Below are positions 6,104 to 48,323 of a stretch of 64,000 nt of DNA, in pieces; position 1 is the stretch's first letter; each line of letters begins with the position of its first letter. The DNA is from Aurantiochytrium sp. KH105 (lineage: Eukaryota; Sar; Bigyra; Thraustochytrida; Thraustochytriidae). The notes under the pieces were generated by a model that had not been told where the DNA came from, searched no databases, and saw nothing but the letters and a program-made list of their open reading frames with translations. Location of the stretch: the NCBI GenBank assembly GCA_003116975.1, contig BGKB01000064.1, positions 124,001-188,000 of the forward strand, given 5' to 3'. A program made the position numbers and the translations under genes.

Positions 6104-9100
6104 ATGGCGCGCAAGGCGCTCTGGGCGACAGCCATCGTCGCTGCGTGCGTCGTCGCGGGCGCAGCCAGCCTCGAGACGCTAGAGGGCCGCCATGCGGCAT
6201 CGTCAACGTCAACGGCGTCGTGGAGCGACGTGCTCGTCTCCGACGAGAGGCTCAAGACAAATGTAACAAAGGCAGACACCGCGACGCTTCTCGACGCGGT
6301 GAGCCGCGTGCAGCTGCGCGAGTTTGATTACGTGTATGAGCAATTCTATAACCCGATCTTCGGCAAGCGGCAGCTAGGCATCATCGCTCAGGAGATCAAA
6401 CCGCTGCTGCCAGGCTCCGTTGGAGTTATTCCCAAGCGGTCCGTCAGCCATGTAGATGACAAGGACCCCACAATCCTCACCAACGTTCACGTCTTTCATA
6501 GCGAAAACCTCTTTATGGCTCACATTGGCGCCACGCAGGAGCTCATTCAACGGACGCAAACAGCACGTAAAACCCTCGAGGACGTGCAGGACAGCTTGGA
6601 GCGTCTGGCGCAGGACGCTACGTCGGGCAAGGAGGCACATGCAGCGCTTAGCTCGATGCGGACCAAGCAGGACGAGCTCGAAAATCTCGCCAAGGCCGCT
6701 CACGAGCGAAGCGAGGGCGCCATTCGGCTCGAACATGTCCTCAAGTCGCTGGAAGACACGAGCCGAAAAGAGCAAGCGGAGCGCACGGCACTCACGCGGC
6801 GCGTACAGGACCTTCACGAAGACTTGCGCACTGAAGTTCGAGATCAGGCAACGTTGCACCGTGACGTGTCGAGTGAAATGTCGGTGCTGACCGAGGGACT
6901 CAAGCAGCTTGGGGCTCGCATCGACGAAAACCTTGTCCAGGTGCAAGCGGCGCAAACAAAAGCCAGCGAGAATATTGCTCAAGTTTCTCGCGAGGCCTCG
7001 GAGATTGCGCGAAAGCAAGTCGAGGAAGCTCGTACGAAGATTGATGCCAAGCTTGCTGATTCTGCGCGGGACATGGCCGCAAGCCTCGAGAATGTAGAAA
7101 AGAAGCTTGCAAGCGAGCGCAAGGACGCTGCAGCCGCTGTCTCTGCCTTGGAGAAAAGTGTCGCGGGCCTTAAAGCTCAGATTGAGGCCAACGTTGCAAA
7201 TGTAGACATCCTTTCGCGCGAAGTTGGTTCTCTTCAATCGAGTCTCGGCGCTGTGGCAGCAGATGCTGCACGTAATTTGAGCGAGGCACGAGGGGAAATC
7301 TCGCATGCTTTTGAACAAGCCAGCAGCGAGCTTGATGAATTACGGACGCGCATTGACGATCTAGAGACCAAGATCAATGCTCAAGCCGGCGCAGAGCTAA
7401 TCGAGCGTCGAAAGATCGCAGAGGCCGAGGCACGCACCGAAGAGGCCAAGATCGAGCTCGAACGAACGCGGACCGTGGAGGAGGAAAAGCGTGCGCGCTC
7501 GCTGGCAGCCATCGAAGTCGAACGTCTTGAGCGACAAGAGAATGCCACGCTTGCCCGCGTTGAAAAGGAGGAAGAGGCGCGCGCTGCGCGCGAGCTCAAG
7601 GTCGCCATAGCGCAAGAGGAGGCTGCGCGTCGCGAGTTCGAGCGTCGCGCCGACCACGAGTCGAGCCTTGTGCGCGCACAGGCTGACGCAGAGGTGTCAA
7701 AGATTCGAGCGCAGAGTGAGCTTGAGCGCGTGCGCGTCCTGGCACAGGGCGAGGCCGATGCACAGCAAGAACGAGCCAATCACGAGCTTCGCAAAGAAAT
7801 GGCCGCGCTCGAGTCGCAAAGTGCCCGTGAGAACACTGTAGCGGCGATTCAAGCCACCTTCCAGGAGACGATCGCAGCGATGCGCATGGCATCGCAGAGC
7901 CCTCAGGATGTTGCTGGTGCACTGGGGCTCTTTGTTCTCTTGGCCTTTGGCGTTTACGCAGGTCGTGAGTTCGTCATTTATTGGCGCAAGGTCTTTGAGC
8001 ATAGGCTCGGACAGCCTTCACTTGTGCGCGAAACCTCGCAGCGTGGGTGGCTACCTCTGGCTTATCTTGTCGAGGCGGTCAAGACTGCAACGAAGCGCAC
8101 TCGAGCGCTCGGGATGCGAATGTGGTCTCGTCAGCTCGGCCGCGGCAAGGATACTGATGCTGCAAGCACGTGCAAAAAGGCTTCCATCTCCTCTTCCTCC
8201 TCCTCATCATCAGCATCGTCGGGTAAGGCTGCTTCCTCGCCCCCCGGTCGGCCTGGAGCGAGAAGCAGCGGCCAGCCCACAGGCGAAGACTCATTTGTGA
8301 GCTTTATGACCGACGTGGTGCTACCTCCGTCGCAAGCCAAACAAATTGAACGGGTCGCGCGTGCAACGCGTGCTGCTCACGTGAATGGCACGCCACTGCG
8401 CCATCTTCTCTTCTATGGCCCACCGGGAACCGGCAAGACTATGGTCGCGCGACGACTTTCCAAATGGTGCGGTCTGGATTATGCAATCATGAGCGGTGCC
8501 GATGTTGCACCTCTCAAAGATCGCGCCGTCACAGAGCTGCATCAGCTCTTCGAGTGGGCCAAACGCACGCCTCGTGGCGTCGCGCTCTTCATTGATGAAG
8601 CTGATGCCTTTTTGGCAACTCGCGACGGAGGCTCGATCAGCGAGTCCCTTCGCAATGCGCTCACCGCGTTGCTCTATCACACGGGCGCGCCCTCGTGCCG
8701 CATCATGCTCATTTTGGCTACCAACCGCCCGCACGATCTCGACAGCGCCGTGTTAGATCGCGTTGACGAGTCTGTGCACTTTGATCTCCCATCGCTCGGC
8801 GAGCGTAGGCGAATTGTGCGACAGTACTTTGCTCAAACCCTCGTCGCGTCATTGGATGTTCCTCCTGAATTTGCGCAGGAAGAAGCGCTTGAGCGCACTG
8901 CCGAGCTCACGGATGGCTTCTCGGGCCGTGAGATTGCAAAGCTCATGACGAGTGTCCAAGCACACGTTTTTGGCAGCGCTGTCGTTCAGGACGACAACGT
9001 AGGCGAACCTCGTCGCGTCAAGCTTTCGCGAGCCATCTATGACCAAGTGCTCGACCACACTGTAAAGGAGCACGCTGCGAAGGCTCCAGTGCTCGAAAAA

Positions 9101-9124
9101 TTGTCCAAGGCGATGTCAAAGTGA
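6104..9124 (+). CDS. Peptidase S74-type chaperone domain fused to ATAD3-like AAA+ ATPase
   Basis: A 1006-residue single exon. Residues 1-22 form a hydrophobic leader (signal peptide or anchor). Residues 46-150 match the intramolecular chaperone (ICA) domain of peptidase S74, known from phage endosialidase tailspikes and MYRF. The motif SDERLKTN places Ser46 and Lys51 at the 5-residue spacing of the self-cleaving Ser-Lys dyad, followed by RQLGIIAQEIKPLLPG and a final helix. A coiled coil fills about 130-600. The C-terminal half is ATAD3: membrane helix at about 604-622, RLGQPSLVRETS, Walker A GPPGTGKT at 772-779, Walker B FIDEADAF with Asp831/Glu832, and a DRVDESVHFDLP segment. A Ser-rich linker lies at about 690-715. 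ATAD3 acts at mitochondrial inner membrane contact sites in nucleoid and cholesterol biology. The hydrophobic leader and S74 domain are not part of known ATAD3 proteins. Cleavage and the final location here are inferred. Confidence 0.93.
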   Translation: MARKALWATAIVAACVVAGAASLETLEGRHAASSTSTASWSDVLVSDERLKTNVTKADTATLLDAVSRVQLREFDYVYEQFYNPIFGKRQLGIIAQEIKPLLPGSVGVIPKRSVSHVDDKDPTILTNVHVFHSENLFMAHIGATQELIQRTQTARKTLEDVQDSLERLAQDATSGKEAHAALSSMRTKQDELENLAKAAHERSEGAIRLEHVLKSLEDTSRKEQAERTALTRRVQDLHEDLRTEVRDQATLHRDVSSEMSVLTEGLKQLGARIDENLVQVQAAQTKASENIAQVSREASEIARKQVEEARTKIDAKLADSARDMAASLENVEKKLASERKDAAAAVSALEKSVAGLKAQIEANVANVDILSREVGSLQSSLGAVAADAARNLSEARGEISHAFEQASSELDELRTRIDDLETKINAQAGAELIERRKIAEAEARTEEAKIELERTRTVEEEKRARSLAAIEVERLERQENATLARVEKEEEARAARELKVAIAQEEAARREFERRADHESSLVRAQADAEVSKIRAQSELERVRVLAQGEADAQQERANHELRKEMAALESQSARENTVAAIQATFQETIAAMRMASQSPQDVAGALGLFVLLAFGVYAGREFVIYWRKVFEHRLGQPSLVRETSQRGWLPLAYLVEAVKTATKRTRALGMRMWSRQLGRGKDTDAASTCKKASISSSSSSSSASSGKAASSPPGRPGARSSGQPTGEDSFVSFMTDVVLPPSQAKQIERVARATRAAHVNGTPLRHLLFYGPPGTGKTMVARRLSKWCGLDYAIMSGADVAPLKDRAVTELHQLFEWAKRTPRGVALFIDEADAFLATRDGGSISESLRNALTALLYHTGAPSCRIMLILATNRPHDLDSAVLDRVDESVHFDLPSLGERRRIVRQYFAQTLVASLDVPPEFAQEEALERTAELTDGFSGREIAKLMTSVQAHVFGSAVVQDDNVGEPRRVKLSRAIYDQVLDHTVKEHAAKAPVLEKLSKAMSK

Positions 9125-9463: not shown

Positions 9464-10423
9464 TCAGGCGAGGCCAGCCTCGGCCTTGATCTTGAACATT
9501 TTCCCGACGCAGAGCTCGAAGTTGACGAAAGCCGCTGCCTTGAAGCCGGCAGCAGCAGCAATGCCGACTGTATGAAAGGGAGTCTGTACGTCACCACAGG
9601 CGAAAACGCCCGGCACAGAGGTCTTTTGCTGGTCGTCAACCTTGACAAAGCTGCCCGACATTGGGTCAGCAGTTACCTCGCAGCCGAGGTCCTCAAGGAT
9701 CGACTTGCAGGCTGGCTCAGAGGAGCTGGCCACGAAAACTCCCTTGAGCTTAATCTCGTCGCCGGTCTCGGTCTTGACAGCGACGCCGTCACCGTCCTCG
9801 CCCATGCTGGAGATAGGGGAAGGATAGAACTCGTATCCGGAGGCCTTGAAGAGAGCCTGCGTGCCGTCGTCGACCTCGAGACCGTCGGCGAAGACAGTGA
9901 GCTTGTCGGACCAATTGGCCGTCTGCGCGATGAACATGGCAGCCACAGGTGGCGGCATACCCTTGCCCATGACGAAGCCAATGGGTTCGTTGCGCACCTC
10001 GTAGCCGTCGCAGTAGACGCAGTGAAAGGCACGCTTGCCCCATAGTGCCTCGAGGCCATCAATCTCCGGCAAGACGTCACGCGCGCCTGTGGCGAAAATG
10101 ATCTTGGCTGCCTCAAGCGAGCTGCCATCCGCGAGTTGCAGCACAAAGCCGGAGTCATCATCCTTGGGTTGCACCGCCTCCAAGCTGGCCTTGCGCACCT
10201 CCACAGTCTCGTACCGCTCCAGGTCCTTGAGGCCCGCCTCGCGCAGCGCCGGCGGCGGCACGTTGTCGCGCGTGAGGAACCCGTTCGAGGTCGCGGCCGC
10301 GTGGTTGTTGTACGTGCCGTTGTCCAGCACCACCGTCTTGCGAAGCGACCGTCCCAGCGTCAGCGCTGCCGACAGTCCGCTCGACCCGGCGCCCACCACC
10401 GCCACCTCGAAGGACGAGGCCAT
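9464..10423 (-). CDS. Thioredoxin-reductase-like FAD/NAD(P) oxidoreductase
   Basis: A 319-residue protein starting MASSFEVAVVGAG, the usual position for this family. The frame stays open 42 codons upstream but there encodes low-complexity Ser/Phe/Pro, so the internal ATG at 10423 is chosen. An FAD-binding GxGxxG (VGAGSSG) lies at residues 10-16. An ATG motif (FATGARDVLPEI) is at about 110-121. The redox pair is C135-VY-C138 in the context HCVYCDGYE. A second nucleotide-binding region holds FVMGKG, and the C-terminal FAD motif VFACGDVQTPFHTVGIAA is present. These define the low-molecular-weight thioredoxin reductase fold. CVYC instead of CATC, and the family's diversity, mean it may reduce something other than thioredoxin, as fungal GliT-type disulfide oxidases do. 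Probably cytosolic. Divergent from the P4-ATPase. Confidence 0.88.
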   Translation of the reverse strand: MASSFEVAVVGAGSSGLSAALTLGRSLRKTVVLDNGTYNNHAAATSNGFLTRDNVPPPALREAGLKDLERYETVEVRKASLEAVQPKDDDSGFVLQLADGSSLEAAKIIFATGARDVLPEIDGLEALWGKRAFHCVYCDGYEVRNEPIGFVMGKGMPPPVAAMFIAQTANWSDKLTVFADGLEVDDGTQALFKASGYEFYPSPISSMGEDGDGVAVKTETGDEIKLKGVFVASSSEPACKSILEDLGCEVTADPMSGSFVKVDDQQKTSVPGVFACGDVQTPFHTVGIAAAAGFKAAAFVNFELCVGKMFKIKAEAGLA

Positions 10424-10966
10424 CTCGTCGAACTTGTTCGGCCGCGCGCGCGGGGAGAAGGAGAAGGAGAAGGAGAAGGGGGAGGGGGGTTGCGACGTCC
10501 CCGTGCACGAGCGAGCAGGCGCCTGATGGAGGCAAGCGATGCAAGCCAAGCAATGCGATGCAAGCCGAGCGTGAGTCGTTTGGGATTTACTACGGAGTCT
10601 TCAAATTTCGCAAAGATTTGTGGGGTCACTCGAGGACCCCGCGTCCCGCCGCCATCAGCCACAACAACTGCTGCTTCTGCTCGCTGTCGCTGCAAATTCT
10701 TCCGCGCTGGCCGCGCCTGGCTGACCGACGCACATACAGGGACCCCGGGGAGTATGCATTTCCTCTCTCGTGCGCCGCGGCCCGCGCAGCCTGCAATCTG
10801 CGTCTGCGCGCGGTGTGCTGTGATTGCTCTCCAGGGCGCGAGCGCGATCTCTTCGGCGGCTCGGGCCCACGTTCGGGTGCCCCGTGGGCCCCCAAAACTC
10901 GTTCTTGTCGCGGGCCGATCGCAGCTCTCGCCCTGTTGATTCATTCAATTCAGAGCTAGAACCGCC
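10424..10966. other. Divergent spacer, oxidoreductase / P4-ATPase
   Basis: 543 bases holding both promoters and 5' leaders. A 6-bp GGAGAA repeat lies at about 10454-10480, immediately upstream of the oxidoreductase ATG. The rest is GC-rich without recognisable features. The P4-ATPase side ends in a strong initiator context, CCGCCATGG. Confidence 0.6.
10454..10480. repeat. GGAGAA hexanucleotide repeat in 5' leader
   Basis: About four perfect GAGAAG/GGAGAA units, purine-only on the plus strand, ending in a G-rich run (to about 10488). It lies in the 5' leader of the minus-strand oxidoreductase gene, where the transcript would carry a pyrimidine-rich CTTCTC tract. Confidence 0.8.
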
Positions 10967-13900
10967 ATGGGCGAGGCGCAGTCGCGCGAAGCCCGGCCGG
11001 GCGGGGCCCGCGAGGGGCCCGGCCAGGCGGAGGCGGCGGCGGCGGCGGCGGCGGAGCGGCAGCAGCAGCGGCCGCCCTCGCGCGAGCTGCGAGACGCGCA
11101 GCGGCGGCGAGGCGCGGGCGACGAGGATGCGACGTGCGAGGCGGACGATGGCTCGGCGTCGACTACCTCGACCTCGAGGACGCCAACTTCTGCTGGCGCA
11201 GAGGGCGCGGGCGCAGGCGGCGCGGGAGCGGAAGGCGAGAGTGCGGGCGACGACGCGGCCGGGGACGCGACGTCGAACGTCGAAGCCTCCATGTCCCTTG
11301 CGAGTGCTTCCGGGTCAACCCGGAACCTCGCCGACGCCGACAGGGAAGACCTGATGCCTCTGCCTCTCCCACCGCCATTAGTGGTGGAACCCGGGCCCGG
11401 AGATGCGCTAGAGGGCCGCGATCGAGTCGCTACTCTCGATGAAAACGATGTTTTGACGGCTTCAGAATCGGAAGATGAAGATCTTGACGCGAAGAACGCA
11501 AAAGGCATATTGGCCCACCACAATGATTCCTCCTCGGAGACAAGTTCCACGGGCAGCGACGACCTCGCAGAAGACCCGAACGAATCCTACAGAAGGGGAA
11601 TCGGTGCGATACCGAGTATGCAAGAGACGCCTCCGTCCTGGGCCAACGATACAGAAGGCTGGACCCGGACCATTGGCTTGGGTGACAATGCCACCATGCA
11701 TTCGAACGCGGTACATACCACAAAGTACACGGCCATGTCGTTTTTGCCGCGCTCCTTCCTGCTTCAGTACCGACGTGCAGGTAACATTTTCTTCACCGTG
11801 ATCGTTGTGGTGATGCTCCTCGGAACGTTCTCGAGACTCTTTGATTCACCACAAGCACCATGGGGTAACATTTTTGTCCTCTCGGTCATTTTTGGCCTGA
11901 ATATGACGAGCGAATTTCTCGACGATCGCGCTCGTGCGCGCAAGGACGACGAAACGAATGCGCAGCCGATCGAGATCCTTGACCCTGTCGACCGAAAATT
12001 TGCCACCAAAACCTGGCGGGAGGTGCGCCGTGGAGACCTTTTGCGCCTGGAGAAAAATGCAGTCTGCCCTGCCGACGTGCTCGTCCTCACAACGAGTGAT
12101 ATCGACACGGAACTGTGCTGCTATGTGCAGACCGCCAACATTGATGGCGAGACGTATCTCAAGAAGCGCCACTGTAAAAAGGAAATTGTCGACAACATCA
12201 TCATGTCTCCACCCGAGACCGCAGACTGGGTGGAAGGTCGCGAGTTCAGATACGAGCCTCCGTCCAGCTCGCTTTCAAGCTTCCGGATCGTCGCCATGCC
12301 CAAGAAGGGAGAGCGGCGGCAGGAACCACTTGCATTCACGAGCGAAAATGTGGTCTTACGCGGGGCCCAACTTCGAAACACGGAGTGGATCTTTGGCGTG
12401 GTACTTTACACAGGCAACGAAACCAAAACGCTCATGTCCATTGCGCCTGCTCGCATAAAGCAGTCCAAAGTGGATCGCATGGTAAACCAGGTCATTGTGA
12501 CAGTTCTGGTCATGCTTGTCTTACTTCTCGGGGCGTCAATCTTGTTGAGTACATACGCTTACAAGCCCACCACTGAACTCTGGTACATGATGTTCACGCC
12601 CGAGTCTTCCGGAAATTTGCTCCCGTCGGGACTGGCGCTCATCCTTACGTACCTGGTCTTGTATCGACAAATCCTTCCCATTCTTCTCTATGCCGTGCAG
12701 GAAGGCCTGAACGTGGCGCAAGCCAAGTACATTGGGTGGGACCTTAACATGTACGACGAGGCTTCCGGCAAGTTTGCCAGCTGCAACACAACCTCCTTGG
12801 CGCAGGAAATTGGCCAGGTCAAGTGGATCTTTTCGGACAAAACCGGCACGCTGACGCGCAACGAAATGCGTCTCGTGGCCATCTGTATCAATAATCGTGT
12901 GTACGGCCGTGCAACCAACAAGCAACTCGAAGAGTTGGCTCGTGAAAAGCTCTCTCCTCTCGACGCCTCGCGGTCTTGCTTCACTGACGTCCTCGACGTG
13001 CTCGCATCGAGCAGCGAACCCGGGGAGCGGGAGAAGCTGCAGCATTTTTTTACTGCCCTCGCGCTCTGTCACACTGTTCTCGTGGAAAGCTCGTCTGTAA
13101 ACCACCCTGTCAAGGACAGCACTCGTCTGTTACGTCGTTCGAGTTTGACTGCTCGCAGCGGAAGTATCATGCATGCGACAACGCTTGAGAGCGCCGTCGA
13201 TGCAGACGGCGTTCACGTGGCGAAGAAAAAGCGCTCGCCCAATCAACGTCGATTGCGCATGACGCTCAAATCGCGAAAACACGCTTCCGAGGTTGTCCTG
13301 CAAGCCCGCCAAAGCGAAGGCTTCCAGTCGGATCTCAATGAACCCAGCCCGGATGAAGCGGATGACAGCGAAAACCACGAGGACGACAGCAACCTCAGTG
13401 ACCCCGTCCCAACATACAATGCCGAGAGTCCTGACGAAGAGGCCCTCGTTCTTGGAGCTTGTGCGCTGGGCTTTGAGTTTGCTTACACTGAAGGCGAGTC
13501 AACTATTGGCTTACGCTTTCGGTCTCCGACCCTTGACCCGAACCGCACTACGTATGCAAATGAGGCCAATGGCGGGCCGCTTCAACCGGATGCAAGTGGT
13601 CGGAACATTTACCATTTCCATGACACTGCGTCCACTCGATATCAAGGTTATGAAGTTCTTGCCATCAATCCATTTACGAGCGACCGAAAGCGCATGTCTG
13701 TCTTGTACGCTGACCCAGACAACCCCGGCCGTAGAATTCTCTTTTGCAAGGGTGCAGACAACCAAATGCTAAGTGCCGCGAACCCGGACACAACTGACTA
13801 TGACAGCATACGTGCGAATCTAAAGTCATTTGCCGAGAATGGCTTGCGCACTCTCATTGTTGGTGAGCGGGAAGTTAGCGACGACGAGTATAGGGCCTGG

Positions 13901-15805
13901 AGCATATTGCACGAGGAGGCGTGTGCATTGACAGGCAAGGAGCGCAAAGCTCGACTTGATGAGGTGGCTCGAGAGATCGAGGTCAAACTCAGCATACTCG
14001 GGCTTACCGCGGTGGAAGATCGCCTGCAGGACGGCGTGCCACAGACCATTTCAATTCTTCGCGCCGCCAAAATCAATATTTGGCTCATTACGGGCGACAA
14101 GGTGGAGACAGCCATAAACATTGGCCGCTCAGCTGAGCTCATTAGTCAGAATTCGCGTGTCATCATGCTGACCGCGGAAGATCTTGGCATTTCGGAGGAG
14201 CAACAGCAAAAGCCTTCGCTTTCCCCTGCCCAACCTGAGAACAAGCGGCAAGGGTCCTCCTTCGCTGTCGAGGCCAATGGCCTCGCCCTGGAAGACATTC
14301 AGGATCATATTCTCAATGTTATCCAGGACCGCCTCGCTCGTATGAGTTCCGAGGACGATGGTCGACTCTCGCGACCGTCCATGTCGGGTATTTACGCAGG
14401 CGGCTACCAGAGCTATGTCATGACTCGCGACAACGAGGAACGAGGGATCAGCGGATTCTGTATGCGCTTGTTCTCGCGCCGCCGCGGCAAGACTGAAAAC
14501 GTGGAGGCCGATGCGAACTTGGCCCTCGTTGTGGACGGAGACACACTTCACTACATCATGTCGAAGAAACATCCCAACGCAGAACTGGAGGCAGCCTTTC
14601 TGCAGCTCGCGCGGGGGTGCGGCGTCGTCATTGCATGCCGGACATCTCCGGGTCAGAAAGCCGACCTGGTGGAACTCGTCAAGGCCAACGTGTACCCAAC
14701 GCCCACTACGCTCGCAATCGGCGACGGTGCCAACGACGTGCCCATGATCGAAAAGGGTCATGTTGGCGTAGGAATTTCAGGCAAGGAGGGCACGCACGCA
14801 GCCAACGCGGCCGATTTTACGATTGCGCAATTTAAATTTCTTGCGCCTTTGCTGCTCGTTCACGGCCGATTTGGCTACATTCGGGTGGCCAAGGCCATTT
14901 CGCTCACCTTCTTTGCCAATCTGCTCTTCACCTTTGTGTCCTTCTTTTACAACTTTATTTGCCGCTTCAGTGGAACTCCGGCCTTCAACAATGCGCAGTA
15001 CGTCATTTTCCAGGCCTTTATTGCCATCCCGGTATTTGTCATTGGCTGGCTCGACCGCGACACCAAGTGGGTCTACGACACGCTCCGTAATCCGCGCTTG
15101 TATGACATTGGGCGTCTCAACAGAATTTTGCACCCAGCCATCGTCGATGCGCAGATTCTTCGTGGGCTCGTCCACGGCGCCTTTGCTTTCCTTCTGGTGT
15201 TTTACAATGATTATGAGGCTTCCTATTTGGCGCTTTCGGGGTCGCTCTTTGTTGTCATTACATGCGTTCTTACTGTCCGCCAGGCCTCCGTGGCTTCGTG
15301 CTACACATGGGGGCTCCTCTTTGGCGTTTGCTTCAACATTGTCGGCTGCCTGGTGCTCGTGTCGCTTATTAACTTTTTTTACTCGGGAAGTGAGAGCAAC
15401 ATCTTTAATCTCGACAAGTGGGGTCGCTACTACTGGAATCAGCTGGTGGCCAGCGTCTTCATCATTTCCCTTTTGGACTACCTTGCTCCTCTGACCTACA
15501 CACAAATGCGCGATTTGATTAATCGCCTCAGATTGTCTTTGCACAAGGCGCGGCAGACGGTCGATGAAGATCCTCACGATGCACTTTTCGACGGACGACT
15601 CGTGGGTTCTCCCGCCACTGCGCATCCCACATCGGCAGCGTTCCTTGGGCCGCCCATTGCAACGGAACTGCAGTCGCCGTCAGATTTAAGACCAACCACG
15701 CCCCGCGGCCCGGGTCTCAGCGTTGTGTCGGAAGGTGAGGCGGAAGCCTCGGATCTCGAAAGCGTCCGGAGCACACAGGAACGCGACGTGGTCATGAGAT
15801 ACTGA
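10967..15805 (+). CDS. P4-type ATPase, phospholipid flippase
   Basis: A 1612-residue single exon with a near-perfect initiator context (CCGCCATGG). P4-ATPases flip phospholipids from the exoplasmic to the cytosolic leaflet, usually with a CDC50 partner. The first 230 residues are a low-complexity acidic/Ser-rich cytosolic extension. Visible signatures: actuator DGET at 393-396, phosphorylation site DKTGTLTRNE with Asp624, Mg-binding GDGANDV with Asp1253/Asp1257, an ITGDKVETAINI-type hinge, and about ten hydrophobic helices. Helices 1-2 precede the actuator, 3-4 precede Asp624, and six follow residue 1290. The TM4 motif usually written PISL reads PILL here (QILPILLYAV). A Ser/Lys-rich insertion lies in the nucleotide-binding domain (about residues 720-790). 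The membrane and lipid cannot be told from sequence. Confidence 0.96.
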   Translation: MGEAQSREARPGGAREGPGQAEAAAAAAAERQQQRPPSRELRDAQRRRGAGDEDATCEADDGSASTTSTSRTPTSAGAEGAGAGGAGAEGESAGDDAAGDATSNVEASMSLASASGSTRNLADADREDLMPLPLPPPLVVEPGPGDALEGRDRVATLDENDVLTASESEDEDLDAKNAKGILAHHNDSSSETSSTGSDDLAEDPNESYRRGIGAIPSMQETPPSWANDTEGWTRTIGLGDNATMHSNAVHTTKYTAMSFLPRSFLLQYRRAGNIFFTVIVVVMLLGTFSRLFDSPQAPWGNIFVLSVIFGLNMTSEFLDDRARARKDDETNAQPIEILDPVDRKFATKTWREVRRGDLLRLEKNAVCPADVLVLTTSDIDTELCCYVQTANIDGETYLKKRHCKKEIVDNIIMSPPETADWVEGREFRYEPPSSSLSSFRIVAMPKKGERRQEPLAFTSENVVLRGAQLRNTEWIFGVVLYTGNETKTLMSIAPARIKQSKVDRMVNQVIVTVLVMLVLLLGASILLSTYAYKPTTELWYMMFTPESSGNLLPSGLALILTYLVLYRQILPILLYAVQEGLNVAQAKYIGWDLNMYDEASGKFASCNTTSLAQEIGQVKWIFSDKTGTLTRNEMRLVAICINNRVYGRATNKQLEELAREKLSPLDASRSCFTDVLDVLASSSEPGEREKLQHFFTALALCHTVLVESSSVNHPVKDSTRLLRRSSLTARSGSIMHATTLESAVDADGVHVAKKKRSPNQRRLRMTLKSRKHASEVVLQARQSEGFQSDLNEPSPDEADDSENHEDDSNLSDPVPTYNAESPDEEALVLGACALGFEFAYTEGESTIGLRFRSPTLDPNRTTYANEANGGPLQPDASGRNIYHFHDTASTRYQGYEVLAINPFTSDRKRMSVLYADPDNPGRRILFCKGADNQMLSAANPDTTDYDSIRANLKSFAENGLRTLIVGEREVSDDEYRAWSILHEEACALTGKERKARLDEVAREIEVKLSILGLTAVEDRLQDGVPQTISILRAAKINIWLITGDKVETAINIGRSAELISQNSRVIMLTAEDLGISEEQQQKPSLSPAQPENKRQGSSFAVEANGLALEDIQDHILNVIQDRLARMSSEDDGRLSRPSMSGIYAGGYQSYVMTRDNEERGISGFCMRLFSRRRGKTENVEADANLALVVDGDTLHYIMSKKHPNAELEAAFLQLARGCGVVIACRTSPGQKADLVELVKANVYPTPTTLAIGDGANDVPMIEKGHVGVGISGKEGTHAANAADFTIAQFKFLAPLLLVHGRFGYIRVAKAISLTFFANLLFTFVSFFYNFICRFSGTPAFNNAQYVIFQAFIAIPVFVIGWLDRDTKWVYDTLRNPRLYDIGRLNRILHPAIVDAQILRGLVHGAFAFLLVFYNDYEASYLALSGSLFVVITCVLTVRQASVASCYTWGLLFGVCFNIVGCLVLVSLINFFYSGSESNIFNLDKWGRYYWNQLVASVFIISLLDYLAPLTYTQMRDLINRLRLSLHKARQTVDEDPHDALFDGRLVGSPATAHPTSAAFLGPPIATELQSPSDLRPTTPRGPGLSVVSEGEAEASDLESVRSTQERDVVMRY

Positions 15806-16193: not shown

Positions 16194-19100
16194 CTATTGT
16201 TCGAGAGAAGTTGGAGAGCAGAGAATCTGCTCGATGATGCCCTCGCCGAGAGACGCAATATCAACTAGAATATCCGTCACGTTAGGCACCAGCTTGACCT
16301 CGCCTTCAGCCGCTTCCGCGCTGTCGTTTTTGGCAGGCTTTGCATGCGAAGTCGCAGCGACGCGTAGCGCAACAGGCTTGTGGATATCGGCATTCCAGCG
16401 AAGACCAATTGCCTGGCCTCGAAAAGGATCGCATTGAACACTGAATAAGTGTCCCAAATCCGAGACAAGGTCCGATGCAAAGCTGGACATCGGGTTGCAG
16501 CCAAGGAGAAGTCGTTCCTGGGACGCGGTGTTCTTGTAAAGCTTGGCGCGCGCGTGCACCGGCAGGCGGGCCTCGCGCAAGCTTGAGACCGGGTTCAACT
16601 TAATGACCACGTCGAAATCCTTGGGGCTCACGGACGACTTAAAGACGGCACCCCAAAGGCGCTGCATTGAACCGGCATCATATCGCCCAGACGCCTGCAG
16701 GGCAAAAAGTTGCTCCAAGAGCACGAGCGAGTCCTTGGCCACTGTAGTGACGCGTGAAAGCACGCGCGGACTTGGGTGGCTCCGGTCGGTCCACTTGGGC
16801 GTCCACTCGCCCGCCGCATCTCTGTCCTCGTTTGTGACAATGAACATAGATGCACCGCTGGCGCGCTCGCGAGTTGCGGTAAAGGATTTCATCAGAGAGG
16901 TGCGCAGGTCGATCTCCGAGGTTGCCGCGCCTTCGCGGACAACGCCGTCAGCATCGCTAAGGTCAATTAGGAGCGGCTCGAACTCCCAATCCCAAGTACT
17001 GAGAAGCTGCAGGAATCGCACAAAGCCACTCATGAGCGAGCGCGGGGCCTTATAAGGTTGTGGATGCAAAAAGAGCGAGGCAACAATAAGCTCGATAGCC
17101 TCCTCTGAAACATGCGACCAAAAGAGGTGACCGCTCATCCAGAGTTTGGCTAATCGGCTTACAGGACCCATTACGTTGGCGCCGCCCCTGTCGTCGCCAC
17201 GCCCGTGGATGGAATGGAGCATTGCATGCAAGTGCGGCTTGTCGACAGTGTCTCTCTCCAGTGCACTCGCCTGTTGCAGTGCGAGCTGCGTTGGGATGCC
17301 CTCGTCCCGAACGAGACGGTCCCCATCCTCACCGCGCTCAGCGCGAATACGGCGAGCAGCGACTGTGGACGCAGACCCAGTAAACGAGACGCGCGGGGAA
17401 CGAAGAAGTTGACGTTCTTTGTCCAGTCGAATGCGCAGTCTGAACCCATAGCCACCCGTGAGGACGTCGAGGCACGTCCGCGAAGGCTCACACCGCTGTT
17501 GCCCGGGATGACTCGCCTCGAGTTGCTCTGCAATTTGTACATAGAATGCCGTCTTCATGACACGAATTGCCTCGACATCGTCAGGCCACTGCCCGCTCGA
17601 CTCGAGCTCGACCACGAGATCGACGACGTCAACGAGACGGGAAATGCTGGTCGTAGATTTTTCGCCCTTGCTGCTTCCCCAAACCTTGCGCTTCTTGCGG
17701 TCCCCACCCTCTGCGTTTCCGCTGCCCATGATGGAGGACAATACAGCTGCGCCCTCCGTTTCTTGGGCACCAAACGCCAAGGGATGCTGTCCAGGCAGCG
17801 TCACGGATGAATACCGAAGACTCGGGTCTGCGACACGAAATCCAGTCACAGCCAAGGGCAACGACAGACCACGGAGTCGGCTCATGAGGTCCTCGGCGCA
17901 AGTTCGAAGCGCAGGGAACGGGACATCTGGCACGCTGAGCTGGCGAGCGCGTTGGCGGTCTTGGCGATCCAAGGTGCCGAGCATGACCTCGAGCTCACGA
18001 CCCACCACGGTGGCGCCCTTCTCCAAAGGCCAGCGGCGCCTCGCGACGAAGTCGGCAATCTTGTCGCATACATCGATATCGCGAAGGGATGTCGGTGCAC
18101 CCGACGCAGGACGTTTGTTTGACTTTTCGTGTTCGGGCCGCCAATCGAGAGTTTCCAGAATGGAACCGTCGCGAAATCTCCGCAACTCAGATTTGCTTCC
18201 CCAAAAGGCACGAAAGGCAGCAGTTGCGGCGACGTGGTCCGCATTGGGGCCCTTGTCGATCACGCGAAAGGCTTCCTCGCGGTCAAGTTGCATGCACACA
18301 AGAAGAGCCGTACGCTGGGGTGTCTCCTTTGGGTCCCAGCTTGCGCACTCCTTTGCGTTGACGCGCACGCGCACCACATGCGCGCGGTGTGTGTCGAGGA
18401 AGCCGCGGCGAAAGCTATGCTCTACACAGCGCTGCACATAGGCCTCCCATCCGAGGTCACAGATCAGAGCTTGCTCGCTGCGTTCGAGGCCAGCAGTCTG
18501 CCAACGGACCGGGTCCTTGGATGGAACAGCAATGCTGTAGTACTTGTCAAACTGGTGCCAAAGATGCACGGGGGCACTAAAAATAGACTCGAAGGCACTC
18601 CGGCCGCCAGATTGGCCGGCGGAGCCCTCCAATAGATCATACGTGAGCTTAGCTTGTTCCACCACCGCGGCCCACGCAGAAGCAGACACGCGCCACGCAA
18701 GGTTCAGGCGGCCGCATGGTCCCATGAGGGCCACATCGAATGCCTTGCGCACTTCTTCGTCCGACAGACCATTATGAATGACTGTGCGATGCAATGTGAT
18801 AAAATACGACGCAAGAGAAAACAAGCATGTTAAACATCGGTGGTCAGTAAACAGCTTCGATCTCGTCTTTTCCAGACACTTCTCTCCTTCAGTGCGGAAA
18901 TACAATGGCTAAAGAAAAAGAGTCACGGGCACCTCGGCGCGACCTTGCATCAGAGATTTTGATTTTCATGTGTTGACAGACACCGGGGCACTACTTTTTG
19001 CACCCCTTCCCGATCAAAAAGATTTGCATCCTTTGCCCGTCCCTTCCGAGCGCCCATGTTTCTCTTTCCAATTTCCGCTTTCGCACCGCCCTACCCCTCT

Positions 19101-20478
19101 TCCTCTTCCTATCCAAACAATACTTACCTGGGTTGCCTCCAGTCGATGGTCGCAGACGCGCAACAGGACCTCGACCAAGGTCAGTCTTGGCGATGACACC
19201 CATAAAATTTCGAAAGAGTTGTTGCACCGAAAGCATGCTGCTGATTCGCTTCTCGAGAAGCTGATGTGCGAGAAACGCGGTGAGCAAAAACTCGGAAAAG
19301 TTATCGGGACCGTCCGACGACGAAAACCCACGAACACGCGCCCAGATCTTCAGAAGGCACGAAACAGGTGCGAAAGACTGACAGCTCTCTTTCACTTCGT
19401 GAAAAAGCTCAAGGTGCGAACGAGGGCCCGAGCTCTCAATATCCTCAAGTACACGCATGTTGTAATGAGGGGTCGGCGCGGGGGTGAGTCCCGCCCTTGC
19501 CTGTCCCTCGCCCGATCCGGCCTCTGGCTCAAATCGGTTCAACGGGCGCACATTATTCTGGTCAAGCTGGAAGCGAGAAATGGGGAAAACATCCTCACTA
19601 ATGACCGGCAGAAAGCGAACCAGCATTTTGCCAACATTAGCCTCAGCAGAAGGCGTCACCAGCAATACGGGTTTGTCGAGATCGCTTGTAAAGGGGGCAA
19701 ACTGAGTGGCTGCCACCAAATCCTTCTTTTTGGCCAGAGACTTGGCCAAAACACCCAAGTAAAGCCGGCGCTTGTCCAAATAACGATGGTTTAGGTAGTC
19801 CTTGCGCTTAAAGCAATCGGCTGGCATGCGAATAGCGAGATCCACAGTGCGGCTTGGTTTGGTGACGGTGCCCAAAAGGTAGCTCCCCACAACGTCAACG
19901 GCCTCGGGGGCAGCAAAGGCCTCAAGCTCAACGGGCTTCTCGGTTTCCCAGTTTTCGAGAGGCACGCCCAGAACGGCTTCTGTCACGATACCCTTGTGCT
20001 TGGCTTTCATCACGGCGTCCTTGAGGGCAAACAGAAACGCGCGTTCCTTCTCGGCACGCTCGGCGCTCGCCGTCACGCGTGATTGCTCAAGCAACTCTCC
20101 CATTTGCAGGCGCAAAAGGTTACTCTGGAACAGCGTCTTGGTCTCGCGCAGGTACTCTTGTTCCTGGAGCGAAGGGAGTGCTGCGCGCCGGCCCTTGTTT
20201 GTTTTCATATTTTTCGCGCTGACGGGGCGCTCTTCAACATCGTCTTCCTCCTCGTCTTCGCCGTCATCAGAGTTGCCAAGTTCTTCGGAAGCGTCATCGC
20301 CGCTTTGGCCAATGTCGTCTTCGTCATCCGCCATGGCTGCAATATGCGCGGCCAGAGCGTCATCTCTGGCCTCCTGTCGAGCATCGTCCTTCTCCTGGAC
20401 GTCGGCCTCCGCCTTGGCCTCTGCCTCTTCGCGAGCCTTTTGCCGCTGGCGTTTCTGCGCGGCGGACTTGCGCGCCAT
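16194..20478 (-). CDS. NOL6: NOL6/Nrap/Utp22 nucleolar SSU-processome protein (2 exons)
   Basis: Two ORFs splice into one 1312-residue protein. Exon 1 is 20478-19128 and exon 2 is 18781-16194. The 346-bp intron has donor GTAAGT (19127-19122) and acceptor CGCACAG, phase 1, joining NP to a Val-Ile-His-Asn junction in frame. Family features include KDYLNHRYLDKRRLYL and KPVLLVTPS in exon 1, and FLDTHRAHVVRVRV, VIDKGPNAD, FRAFWGSKSELRRFRDG and SLPLAVTGFRVADPSLRY in exon 2. Nrap/Utp22 works with Rrp7 in the UTP-C part of the small-subunit processome, in the nucleolus, during 18S rRNA maturation. The N-terminus (residues 1-95) is Lys/Ala-rich then acidic, as in other family members. Length is a little above the human protein. 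Divergent from TMEM216. Confidence 0.92.
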
Positions 20479-34415: not shown

Positions 34416-35817
34416 CTTGCTTGCTTGTTTGCTTGCTTGCCGGCCGCTGGGCCTCGCTCGACACGAGCTCTCCTTTTTGTTTCTTGCCTCTCTGTTCTAG
34501 ACTCTGATCCGCCTGCCGCGCTATGGTGGCACTCGCGAGAGATCTCGACGAATCTCGACGTCCACTTCTTGGTCTGCAGGACTCTTGCCGCCATGCGCGA
34601 CGCAATGCAATGGAATACCGGGTGAGTGCAAAGGAAAGGTGCGCCGCAATGGCTGAAAGTCCACGAATGAGTGATTTGAATCACAAATGACACATTTGTG
34701 GCTATAGTCAGCGGACGGCCGTCAGCGGACTGTGACTCTGAGAGTGGAATTGGTGTTCTGCATCCAGGTCTTCACAATCATTGGGCACCGCGTGCACACA
34801 GGAATCTTTCCGTCTTTGAGAAAAAGCTGATTTTAAAGTTTGACGGTCTTCACTTCTGGCGGTATCGATGGCGCCATTGCTGATGAGGGTATATACTCGC
34901 ATCTCGACGTGACCAAAGCGAACAAGTTTTTCCTCTCGGTATACTGTGTCAAAACCAGAATACGACAGACCACGCTGCTGGAATGCTATTTTTTACCTCG
35001 TGGGCCCAGGGCAACTCGGGAGGTCACGACTTTTACAAAATTCAAGTCAAAAAAAAAAATTGAAGACGCCAGCGAGAAAAGTCCCAAGTTCTTATGAGGT
35101 CTCTTTCCATTCCCAAGGTCGAATATCTGGGAGACACTTTCCAAGCTTCCGGCAGCTTACTTTCTCACGACCTGCTGCCTGCGCATAACCAACCTTGCAT
35201 ATATTTATATAGCATGGACGTAAGAATGATGGGCTTGCTAAATGCCATTGGACATGGTCTCTAACGGATAGTTACGAAGTAGGCTTCGCAGCTTCCCGGT
35301 TTTGACGCAAGCAAGTTGTCCACCACCTTACTGCTACTATGCTATGTATCAACACTTACCGGATACGCGGGCCTAATGCAGGGAGTGGACACAAGCCGTT
35401 GTTTAGGAAGGTGAGCAAGCAAGCTCTGGCTGACGTGACGTGCCGAAGCACTTGCCGGTATCTGACCAACTTTGCTGGCTTTCCTGCCTGCTTGCTTGCT
35501 CCCAGCCGGGGCAGAGCAGTGCAGTGCAGTGCAGAGCGTGGCAAAGCGGGGCAGAGCGAGACGGCGGTGCGCCGCTCGCTCGCTCTGTTCGCCATAGTGA
35601 GACAGACGGGAGAGCACATTCCTTAGACGCTCTCAATCAAGACCAGGTTGACGAACTCATATTTTTCCTAGGTCGTGTGCGCTCACCATTGCTCTGAGGC
35701 AGCAGCCACAAACATCTTGGTCTCGATTGAAATTAACGTGACAATACAGTCCTCAAAAGACCCTGGCGAGAGCGCACCTTTGCACGGGTGCGCATCTCGC
35801 TACTGTGCACAACAGAT
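34416..35817. other. Long divergent spacer, PEX11 / K+ channel
   Basis: 1402 bases, the longest gene-free stretch. It begins with GCTTG-type repeats (34416-34440). It contains a perfect 8-bp inverted repeat with a 3-bp loop (34682-34700) and a 10-bp direct repeat (34707-34730), an A-run at about 35049-35058 and an AT-rich TATATTTATATA-type box at about 35198-35210. No ORF has protein character. The box at 35200 could mark a transcription start for the channel, about 610 bases upstream of its ATG. Confidence 0.5.
34682..34730. repeat. Inverted repeat followed by a 14-bp-period direct repeat
   Basis: CACAAATG and CATTTGTG are perfect inverted repeats separated by ACA (34682-34700). Seven bases on, GTCAGCGGAC occurs twice (34707-34716 and 34721-34730), separated by GGCC. 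This is the only such structure in the long spacer and may be a regulatory site. Confidence 0.6.
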
Positions 35818-38800
35818 ATGCCCGAAGGCTCCATTAGCTCCAAGGTGATTGGCGGCTTTACGAAAGCGTCTGCATCAAACACAAAGGCGCACGATGGAGA
35901 CCACAATCGACTCAAACTGGAGCAACGCGCACAGACCTTCTTGCGAAGTATGCACACGGTCCCTGACCAGGCTCCGTCAATACCCAAAAGCTACCGAGAC
36001 TTCCCTGATAGCGAAGTTGAGGACGCCTCTTTAAATCGCACCAGCTTTCGCATATCCGAGATGGACACGGAAATGTCGAGCGTGGACGACATCGGCTCAG
36101 AGTCAGGCGCTCATAGCGAAGACGAATCTTTTGCTCTCGACGAAGAAGAGGAGCCTATGCCGCGATACATTATCCACCCGCAAAGCACAAACAAAGTCGT
36201 CTGGGACGTCTTTGTAAGCGTACTTATTTTCTACAGCGTCACTAACATTCCGTTCCGAATCGGCTTTGGTGTCGATTCTGAAGGCTTCGCGTATGGCTTT
36301 GACTGGTTCGTTGACGGCATGTTTGGCTTCGACATCATTCTCAGCTTCTTTACTGCCTATTGGCACAACGATGAACTGGAGACGTCGCGAAGACGCATCG
36401 TTGTGCATTACCTTCGTGGTTGGTTCTTAATCGATCTGGCGTCAACGCTGCCATTCGATCACATCGTCGCGGCCTTGATGCACAACGATAACGCAAGCGA
36501 CGTGAACTCCTCGCTGCGTTCCATCAAGCTCATCAAGTTCTTCCGTCTTGTCCGCTTGATCAAACTGGTGCGACTTCTCAAGCTAAAAAAGTTTGGCTCG
36601 AGCCTTGAAGGTGCCTTCAGCCTCAATCCTGCGCTCCAACGTCTTCTCAAGCTCCTTTTGCAGATCATTTTCATTTGTCACTTGCTGGCCTGCTTCTGGT
36701 ACTTTACTTCAACGCTCGACGATAGCTCCGACGACAACTGGGTCATGGCGCACGGTCTTTCGAGCGACAGTATTCCAACCCAATACCTGGCGAGTTTTTA
36801 TTGGACCGTAGCTACGATGATGGCTGTAGGCTACGGAGACATCCACGCTGTCAACGACATGGAGCGAATGTACTCGATCTTTGTGCAAGTGGTGGGAGCA
36901 ACCTGCTTCGGTTTCATTATTGCCAATATTTCAGCATTTCTGGAAACTTTTGACCCGCGCGCCTCTGCATATCGCTCGAGGATGGACCGTCTCAAGCAGT
37001 ACATGTGCGACCGCGACCTTCCTCGAAAACTGCAACGCCGCGTGCGAAAATATTACGACTACGTCTTGTCCAAGGAGTCCATCTTTGATGATGCGAACAT
37101 TCTTGCGCAGCTCCCTTCGCATCTTACAGAGACAGTCATTCTCCACATTCACGGCCACAAGGCTCGCACAATTAACTTTCTCAAGTACGAGGACAGCAGC
37201 TTTGTAGCTTACATCATGGCGCGCTCCAAGGTCCTTCTCGCCTTGTCGGGAGAAGTTATCTGCGAGCAAGACTCGGTCGGCACAGACATTTACATGGTCC
37301 TTAAAGGCAAAGTCGAAGCCATTGTTTTGGAGATCGATGAGACGGAGCACAAGCGCTTTCGCATCAATCAAGACGAGGAGGAGAACGCTTTAATGCGGAA
37401 AGGCGCAGAACGCATCAACAGTGCCAGCGGAACCCTTCGAATCAATGCACCCGCATTGGCGAGCGATGCCGACGCAGGCCGCGAAGCCCCCCCTATGCTC
37501 ACTGGGTCGACTGGGAACAGCTCAAGTCGTCTTGAACCTCCGCGGCCTCGCGATGTGCGTAACATGGTCAAGCAACAGCTCGGGGCCTCGAGTCGGAACG
37601 TGGTTAAAAAGGGCATAGCTTTTGGAAAAAAGGTCAAGCACGCCGTCGTCACAGGCTTGTACAATCGCGGATCGAATTTTGGCGAAGTCGGCGTCTTGCG
37701 AAATAAACCGCACGAAGTCACCTTTCGCGCAAATCAGACGTGTGACTTACTTTCCATCTCCAAAGAACATATGGAGTACGCAATCTACATGTACCCGACC
37801 AGTGCCTTGCGCTTTCGAAAGCGATGCGATAAGCACGCCGAGCTCCTCGAGAAATCCATCGCCTCGTCTACCGAGTACTTTCCGCACTCAGATCGCCATG
37901 TAAAGACGCTTGTGACGGTTGATGCCCGTATGCACCAAAGTGCGGCGACCGTGGAGCGTCGCATTGGGCGAATGGTCCTTTCCAATATGATTGCCTATGA
38001 CATCACCGGTCGCTTTCAGAGTCAGGCACAGCGAGGACGGAAAGTGAAGAAGAATCGCGCGAGGACGTTAGGACTTCGCACGAGCAGTGCGCCGTCCGAG
38101 TCGCATCCTGACAAGAGTCATCACGTTGCTGTAAAAACGTCAATTAAAGTACGCCGCGCATTGGTCAATCAAAAGAGTCGAGCCGGAAGCCTTCTCTTTA
38201 AAACCCCCGAGGTGACCGAAGAGCTCGCGATCCTTGGAACTGGGGCCTCCTCGACAAGCAGAGTGTTTCCGATGAGCGACGTGACAAGTCGAACCGAGAG
38301 CCTTAGTGTGTTGGACTCAGCCGTTCCATTCGATGCTCCATCAACGACCACGATCTTGCCCACTTCTCGCTCTGTGACCCGATCCAAGTCGAGGTCCCGA
38401 TACATTGTGGACGCCAAGCCAGACAGCGGACCCCTGAGCTTGCTACCAAGCCTTCTGAATCCAGCCCTCGAAAAGAAGACCCAAGGGGCTCGCTCACACA
38501 TTGCCTGGGGTTTCCGAACGGCTCGCTCTGCTGCTTCTGAAGCATCCTCCTCGACAGCGATGTCGACAGCACGGCATTTACTTCCGCATCAGCTTCGCCG
38601 GAAAGCAAAGAACAGCGGGGATGGACTTGAGATTCCAAAGAAAAGGCCAGGTGCAATATCAACTGACAGGTACGACGACAACGCTGCGACTAAGAAATCA
38701 GAATTGTTTTCGCCTGGAGCAAGCAGCGAGAGCGGAAGCGGTGGCGACGATGATAGCTCGCGAGCAGATCATACGAATTCCAGCGAAGCTCATGATGGCC

Positions 38801-47979: not shown

Positions 47980-48323
47980 AATGATAAGGATAATGATCTT
48001 CTTTTTGAGCGTGAACTAGGCCTAGGCCTATTGTCAAACTTTAGTTTCCAAACTAGTTCGTTCGTCCAGTTTTATTCCGCGCGATAGTTCGTTCGCGCAA
48101 GCACGCAGAGTTGGCAGAATTTATTTCGTAGCGACGCGATTCCAGTCGCGACTGCGCCCTTTGCTCCCCAGAGTCGTCGGCCTCGGGGCGGCCAGCTAGC
48201 TGGCCGCCAAAGGAATCTTGCGCCCTTGTGCGCCGCGCCAACGACGAAGGGAAACTTTCCCGTGTAAAAGCGGTGGGCAGGGAGGGAAGGGGAGGGGCGC
48301 GGGGCGCGAGGGCAGACAGCACC
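47980..48323. other. Intergenic spacer between two plus-strand genes
   Basis: 344 bases holding the hydrolase 3' end and the promoter of the PqiA-like gene. A CTAGGCCTAGGCCTA palindromic run lies at about 48018-48031. An open frame continues 32 codons upstream of the next gene's ATG but begins without an ATG. Confidence 0.5.

Follow-up and report, generated by a model that had tools for sequence, protein, structure and literature searches.

An ATAD3-type AAA+ protein with an N-terminal MYRF-type ICA domain and its relatives in stramenopiles and alveolates

The locus described here raises the question of what a Peptidase_S74 domain, known from phage chaperones and from MYRF, does at the N-terminus of an ATAD3-type AAA+ protein. 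The window, i.e., the whole stretch of 64,000 nucleotides analysed, contains a gene with a single open frame of 1006 amino acids (6104..9124, + strand), which starts with ATG and has no internal stop. The same layout is displayed by the NCBI entry P0002, a 1006-aa gene model of Hondaea fermentalgiana, which is 100% identical at residues 20-170 with few differences elsewhere and carries the name 26S proteasome regulatory subunit 7-like. Hondaea belongs to the thraustochytrids within the stramenopiles.

The protein begins with a hydrophobic leader (residues 1-22, 6104..6169, +; end point set by eye), which appears signal-peptide-like and reaches a peak Kyte-Doolittle value of 2.56 over 11 residues. 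The Peptidase_S74 domain (residues 46-106, 6239..6421, +) scores 35.2 bits in Pfam against a cut-off of 22 and is recovered by a six-frame search as well. Next comes a stretch that according to the proline count is free of proline (residues 134-598, 6503..7897, +), in agreement with the coil of about 470 residues put forward in an earlier, sequence-only reading of this DNA. The ATAD3 half comprises an ATAD3_N match (residues 435-642, 7406..8029, +; 51.5 bits, cut-off 25, covering profile positions 64-265 of 265), a membrane segment placed by alignment and charges within approximate limits (about residues 605-623, 7916..7972, +), the RLGQPSLVRETS motif read from the translation and the alignment (residues 634-645, 8003..8038, +) and the AAA module (residues 768-894, 8405..8785, +; 83.8 bits, cut-off 21.2). 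Both Walker motifs, already called intact in that reading, were read directly from the translation, namely Walker A GPPGTGKT (residues 772-779, 8417..8440, +) and Walker B VALFIDE (residues 826-832, 8579..8599, +), the latter ending in DE at 831-832. Thus, ATAD3_N is followed by AAA with intact Walker A and B, as in an ATAD3. For the AAA part (residues 739-999), the best NCBIfam match is the model of the bacterial anti-phage ATPase IteA, at 67.1 bits far under its cut-off of 510.

A single-chain model of residues 40-175 (pLDDT 94.7) displays an ICA fold, as the sequence-only reading had anticipated, with MYRF as its nearest relative. As modelled, the full fold including its C-terminal helix spans residues 46-175 (6239..6628, +). 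A fold predicted from 5 sequences was set aside (pLDDT 47.9). The dyad positions (6239..6256, +), Ser46 (6239-6241) and Lys51 (6254-6256), align with MYRF S587, an Ala in the crystallised mutant, and K592, so the spacing typical of S74 peptidases, recognized earlier from the letters alone, is borne out; from the available part of the MYRF study, the cut would be expected immediately 5' of position 6239 (PMC8326128). The Pfam model MYRF_ICA stays below its cut-off in the window protein (13.9 vs 24.1 bits), and five of ten family fragments match it at E up to 1, the best at 1.2e-7.

Known systems differ from this arrangement. The chaperones of phage endosialidases and neck appendages belong to the same fold family (3gw6, 3gud) and the same Pfam family; theirs, however, is C-terminal and removes itself, whereas here the domain is N-terminal and stays attached to the rest of the protein. 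Unlike MYRF, the window protein has neither a DNA-binding domain nor an upstream beta-helical stalk: no DNA-binding family was found in its Pfam scan at E up to 1, and only 45 residues precede Ser46. Furthermore, the ICA domain of MYRF faces the cytosol, as described in the accessible part of PMC3742443, whereas the leader seen here suggests the opposite side of the membrane.

A search with the ATAD3 half retrieved 2034 proteins at E <= 0.001 among 8000 candidates scored. Among the best 120 of these 2034, the S74 domain is present in 82 of the 120 distinct ATAD3-like proteins when searched with a profile extended from a seed of seven Hondaea-type sequences (83 of 121 rows if the window protein and its NCBI copy are counted separately); this share applies to the best 120 matches, not to nature, and the family is spread at least this widely. 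The 38 rows lacking the domain are 30 canonical ATAD3 proteins and 8 N-terminally short models, which are placed among the carriers in the tree. Searches with the S74 region alone found the fusion in five proteins, Hondaea's own among them.

Carriers named among the matches listed come from Hondaea, the oomycetes Saprolegnia diclina, Aphanomyces (two) and Thraustotheca, from Noctiluca and from Amoebophrya (two), so the search for the same fusion in related genomes, proposed in the sequence-only reading, was answered positively; one further named carrier is P0004. The latter bears the label Durusdinium trenchii, but in the tree it falls among the Hondaea-type rows, apart from the dinoflagellate type, and it has Cys at the position of the catalytic Ser. 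Either contamination or a second paralogue may explain it, and it was left out as evidence for dinoflagellates. In P0073 from Thraustotheca, a PF13640 domain lies upstream and the S74-ATAD3 part begins only at residue 418, perhaps reflecting two genes joined by annotation. The gene model of P0006 begins within the S74 domain. Nine carriers among the best 120 of 2034 stem from the source mmetsp, a transcriptome project, and five more have TRINITY transcript names. These records therefore favour one transcript.

Hondaea, oomycete and dinoflagellate types were compared by profiles. With the seven-row seed alone, all ten oomycete-type rows are recovered at a whole-protein E <= 6.6e-8 within the small set of rows searched; for one of them, P0098, the best single stretch is not significant with this seed. 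In profile-profile comparison, the Hondaea type matches the oomycete type with a probability of 99.6 and the dinoflagellate type with 99.9, and canonical N-termini reach at most 0.2. Among the matches listed, carriers go under the name ATAD3 or 26S proteasome regulatory subunit 7-like, and the domain appears in none of these names. Within the open-access full-text literature, outside of which most subscription journals lie, no ATAD3 with an S74 or ICA domain is described, and ATAD3 and S74 combined with thraustochytrid, dinoflagellate, oomycete or chaperone of endosialidase returned nothing; papers using the Pfam family name are, among the matches listed and by title, mostly phage papers. On ATAD3 with a signal peptide and the ER in protists, this literature gave a single paper, on a myxozoan, and among the matches listed for MYRF, the ICA domain and these lineages none dealt with MYRF or the ICA domain. 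The statement that no such ATAD3 had been described stands for this literature; in stramenopile and alveolate sequence data, however, the combination is common.

The window protein shares with canonical ATAD3 the ATAD3_N region, the membrane segment with its P-x-LVRETS motif and the AAA module. In contrast, the ICA domain is absent from the 30 canonical rows among the best 120 of 2034 and from the second, canonical ATAD3 of Hondaea on C113/C104, which counts 598 aa from its first Met, has no hydrophobic leader and possesses a shorter coil than the carrier. PfATAD3 comprises 663 aa, and an ICA-type domain is not mentioned in the available part of its description (PMC13249166). In a mixture-model tree computed for 86 rows from the membrane and AAA part, one branch splits 76 carriers from 10 canonical proteins (support 93/78; present in 95% of 200 bootstrap trees). 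When all 121 rows are placed in a quick tree, the label has to change 9 times, 8 of these changes being forced by starred branches; we put them down to the 8 N-terminally short models plus one split. The canonical row of Hondaea sits on a very long branch of 3.74. An old separation of carriers from canonical ATAD3 is likely but not final, judged from these trees. The oomycete group adjoins canonical ATAD3 in the trees, and long branches meet there; due to this, no history of gain, loss or transfer is drawn.

How might such a domain serve a AAA+ protein? The C-terminal helix of the ICA domain (model residues 94-135) enters the 465-residue stretch without proline. Among the best 120 of 2034, 74 of 75 relatives have no more than one proline in the corresponding stretch, the median length of which is 290. 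Heptad periodicity is clear at residues 150-260 (0 of 500 shuffles as high) and weaker at 134-200 and 260-370 (16 of 500 each) as well as 370-480 (51 of 500); at 480-600 it is absent (199 of 500). For MYRF, the accessible part of the published work reports that three ICA domains join their C-terminal helices in a triple coil, which is the main driver of trimerisation, and that the trimer is required for cleavage (PMC8326128). Since the ICA helix is continuous with the coil, nucleation of a trimer by the ICA domain is likely, as far as the model and the analogy to MYRF reach.

On balance, we lean, although not heavily, toward the following reading as a whole: the window protein belongs to a distinct ATAD3-type AAA+ branch in stramenopiles and alveolates, in which the leader is followed at once by a MYRF-type ICA domain, and it works by the mechanism proposed here. 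Guided by the leader, the N-terminal half would cross a membrane, most probably the ER membrane. There, the ICA domain would fold as a trimer via its C-terminal helix, as in MYRF, and would start and cap a parallel trimeric coil, the anchors of which would carry the AAA modules across the membrane. A trimeric coil does not match a hexameric AAA ring unless an extra assumption is made; two trimers giving one AAA hexamer, the idea of the sequence-only reading, would fit and is plausible.

The compartment is the point at which this proposal departs from canonical ATAD3. The sequence-only reading had assigned the protein to mitochondria. By eye, however, the window protein and its relatives start with leaders that resemble secretory signal peptides, and a mitochondrial presequence is disfavoured for this reason. 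In the dinoflagellate type, all 55 rows that contain the NWLL..C..C.DQ motif show a permitted signal-peptidase site at the first residue of the motif or one earlier, by a loose rule of our own making applied without a control set. Both observations weaken the mitochondrial address. Peak hydrophobicity of at least 1.8 is found in 57 of 68 carriers and 17 of 31 canonical rows; N-terminal hydrophobicity does not separate the two and was rejected as a test for secretion. All groups including the canonical one carry more positive charge after the membrane segment than before it. As this asymmetry is common to canonical ATAD3, it informs the orientation, not the compartment.

Sequons ahead of the membrane segment number 17 in the Hondaea type (12.2 expected), 108 in the dinoflagellate type (72.7), 30 in the oomycete type (12.0) and 41 in canonical ATAD3 (29.0). 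After it, the respective counts are 6 (8.2), 82 (69.4), 5 (9.7) and 62 (35.9). The enrichment ahead of the membrane, present in two groups, is suggestive only, since the canonical control shows an excess after the membrane and the rows are related. The domain itself holds a sequon in two of eight Hondaea-type, 49 of 50 dinoflagellate-type and 10 of 10 oomycete-type rows. From these sequence features we favour the ER or secretory system over mitochondria and consider it about twice as probable.

Nevertheless, the protein could be anchored in the mitochondrial inner membrane so that its ICA cap and coil lie in the intermembrane space, the leader acting as a sorting signal and the ICA domain as a trimer cap only. 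This would retain the orientation of canonical ATAD3. Moreover, canonical ATAD3 proteins of plants, which are mitochondrial, likewise have short hydrophobic starts. Against this stand the carrier leaders, which by eye have no arginine-rich presequence, and the sequons, which occupy a fixed column in all 10 oomycete-type rows and in 42 of the 50 dinoflagellate-type rows tested, so that such a location appears unlikely.

The second question concerns self-cleavage. In MYRF, S587A and K592A block cleavage and R590A, Q639A and others do so partly, according to the available part of PMC8326128. Known ICA domains keep Ser and Lys absolutely, as stated in the accessible part of PMC3742443, whereas the ATAD3-borne family often has no Ser. 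Among the best 120 of 2034 matches, 75 rows are readable at the dyad: 31 have Ser and Lys, 27 Gly and Lys, 6 Ala and Lys and one Cys and Lys, and in 10 the dyad is lost; Ser is thus missing in 44 of 75. The eight Hondaea-type rows have Ser (seven) or Cys (one) and all keep Arg49, Lys51 and Gln96. The 57 dinoflagellate-type rows have Gly (27), Ser (24) or Ala (6), with Asp47 and Lys51 in all 57 and Arg49 mostly changed, and no oomycete-type row (0 of 10) has Ser. The retention of Asp47 and Lys51 without Ser suggests a structural use of these residues. Since Ser is absent in 44 of 75 relatives and S587A abolishes cleavage of MYRF, self-cleavage is weakened as the purpose of the domain. Judged by these residues, cutting is likely in the Hondaea type and doubtful or absent elsewhere, with the fold retained. 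Of the self-cleavage at Ser46 claimed earlier, the part that survives is a cut that looks possible in Hondaea, where the dyad is intact; a common function of the family it is not.

This bears on the idea of the sequence-only reading that, in a mitochondrial protein, the ICA domain assembles a trimer and then cuts away residues 1-45 and thereby frees the targeting leader in one shot. The intact dyad of Hondaea, the short stretch that alone separates the leader from Ser46 in the Hondaea type and the mitochondrial location of canonical ATAD3, reported in the available part of PMC13249166, would agree with it. It is at odds with the signal-peptide-like leaders and with the missing Ser of most readable relatives. 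Furthermore, all 48 rows with the strict form of the NWLL motif have it 15 residues ahead of position 46, whether Ser is there or not, so this segment is presumably retained in Gly and Ala rows. We consider a one-shot release improbable, even more so than the inner-membrane location. In the dinoflagellate type, a CxxC segment follows the presumed signal peptide, and an inter-subunit disulphide is possible.

In the mechanism favoured here, the intact dyad of Hondaea and its close relatives probably cuts before Ser46 upon trimer formation and trims the remaining N-terminus. If signal peptidase acts first (at about residue 22), this would remove only some 23 more residues. In many dinoflagellate-type and oomycete-type proteins, the domain would have turned into a non-cutting assembly cap.

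The own genome assembly comprises 76 Mb, and its S74 and ATAD3 loci have near-identical partners on other contigs, the pattern that two haplotypes would give. The two copies of the fusion gene differ by 17 non-synonymous and 70 synonymous codons and 5 gapped codons (dN 0.008, dS 0.105), and selection maintains the reading frame. Because the NCBI model of Hondaea, the second haplotype and independent records share the layout and domain order, the fusion is beyond chance. The earlier claim of one gene is upheld by the stop-free frame, the two haplotypes and transcript-named relatives spanning both halves.

A relic that folds and neither assembles nor cuts anything important would be in line with the at least 13 changes of the Ser state on the tree. 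However, the domain is retained in 82 of 120 distinct relatives (best 120 of 2034), residues 43-160 show 0 non-synonymous vs 7 synonymous differences between haplotypes, and all 57 dinoflagellate-type rows keep Asp47 and Lys51, those lacking Ser included, which renders a relic very improbable. A wrong join of two adjacent genes, for which nothing at the window locus speaks and only the extra N-terminal domain of P0073 offers a possible parallel, was rejected and is practically negligible given the single frame, the haplotype pair and the recurrence of this domain order in many records, some of them named as transcripts.

Two further S74 genes of the own genome (L001, 1375-3168, -; L003, 1348-2661, -) carry the domain close to their C-terminus, the position it has in phage proteins, with S-D-x-R-x-K intact. 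Open frames of 14,562 and 15,312 codons (G000:C159:155929-157917; G000:C208:24704-26692; L005-L008), probably two haplotypes of a single giant gene, hold two S74 domains each, which keep S-D-x-R-x-K and past the dyad resemble the ATAD3-borne domain by eye. Neighbours in the window are ordinary-looking eukaryotic genes for a pyridine-nucleotide disulphide oxidoreductase (9464-10549, -), a phospholipid-translocating P-type ATPase (10967-15805, +), a Nrap-like protein split over two frames (16194-20478, -), a cyclic-nucleotide-binding ion channel (35788-40908, +) and a PqiA-domain protein (48228-50915, +).

Tentatively, and with less confidence than for the window protein itself, a whole branch of ATAD3 in stramenopiles and alveolates might hold an ICA-capped trimeric coil in the lumen of the ER or secretory system, with one half of a AAA hexamer built by each cap, and self-cutting would be an assembly checkpoint in thraustochytrids that was repeatedly lost elsewhere. 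If this is true, one and the same machine exists in nature with and without self-cutting. Beyond MYRF, the ICA domain gains a second eukaryotic setting, and the machine is of quite another kind. Since some members keep the catalytic Ser and close relatives of theirs lack it, the chaperone and self-cutting roles of the domain can be told apart in this family. It also allows a direct test of how a trimeric coil feeds a hexameric ATPase. For ATAD3, which has been studied as a mitochondrial protein, these results suggest that a sister branch may have another address.
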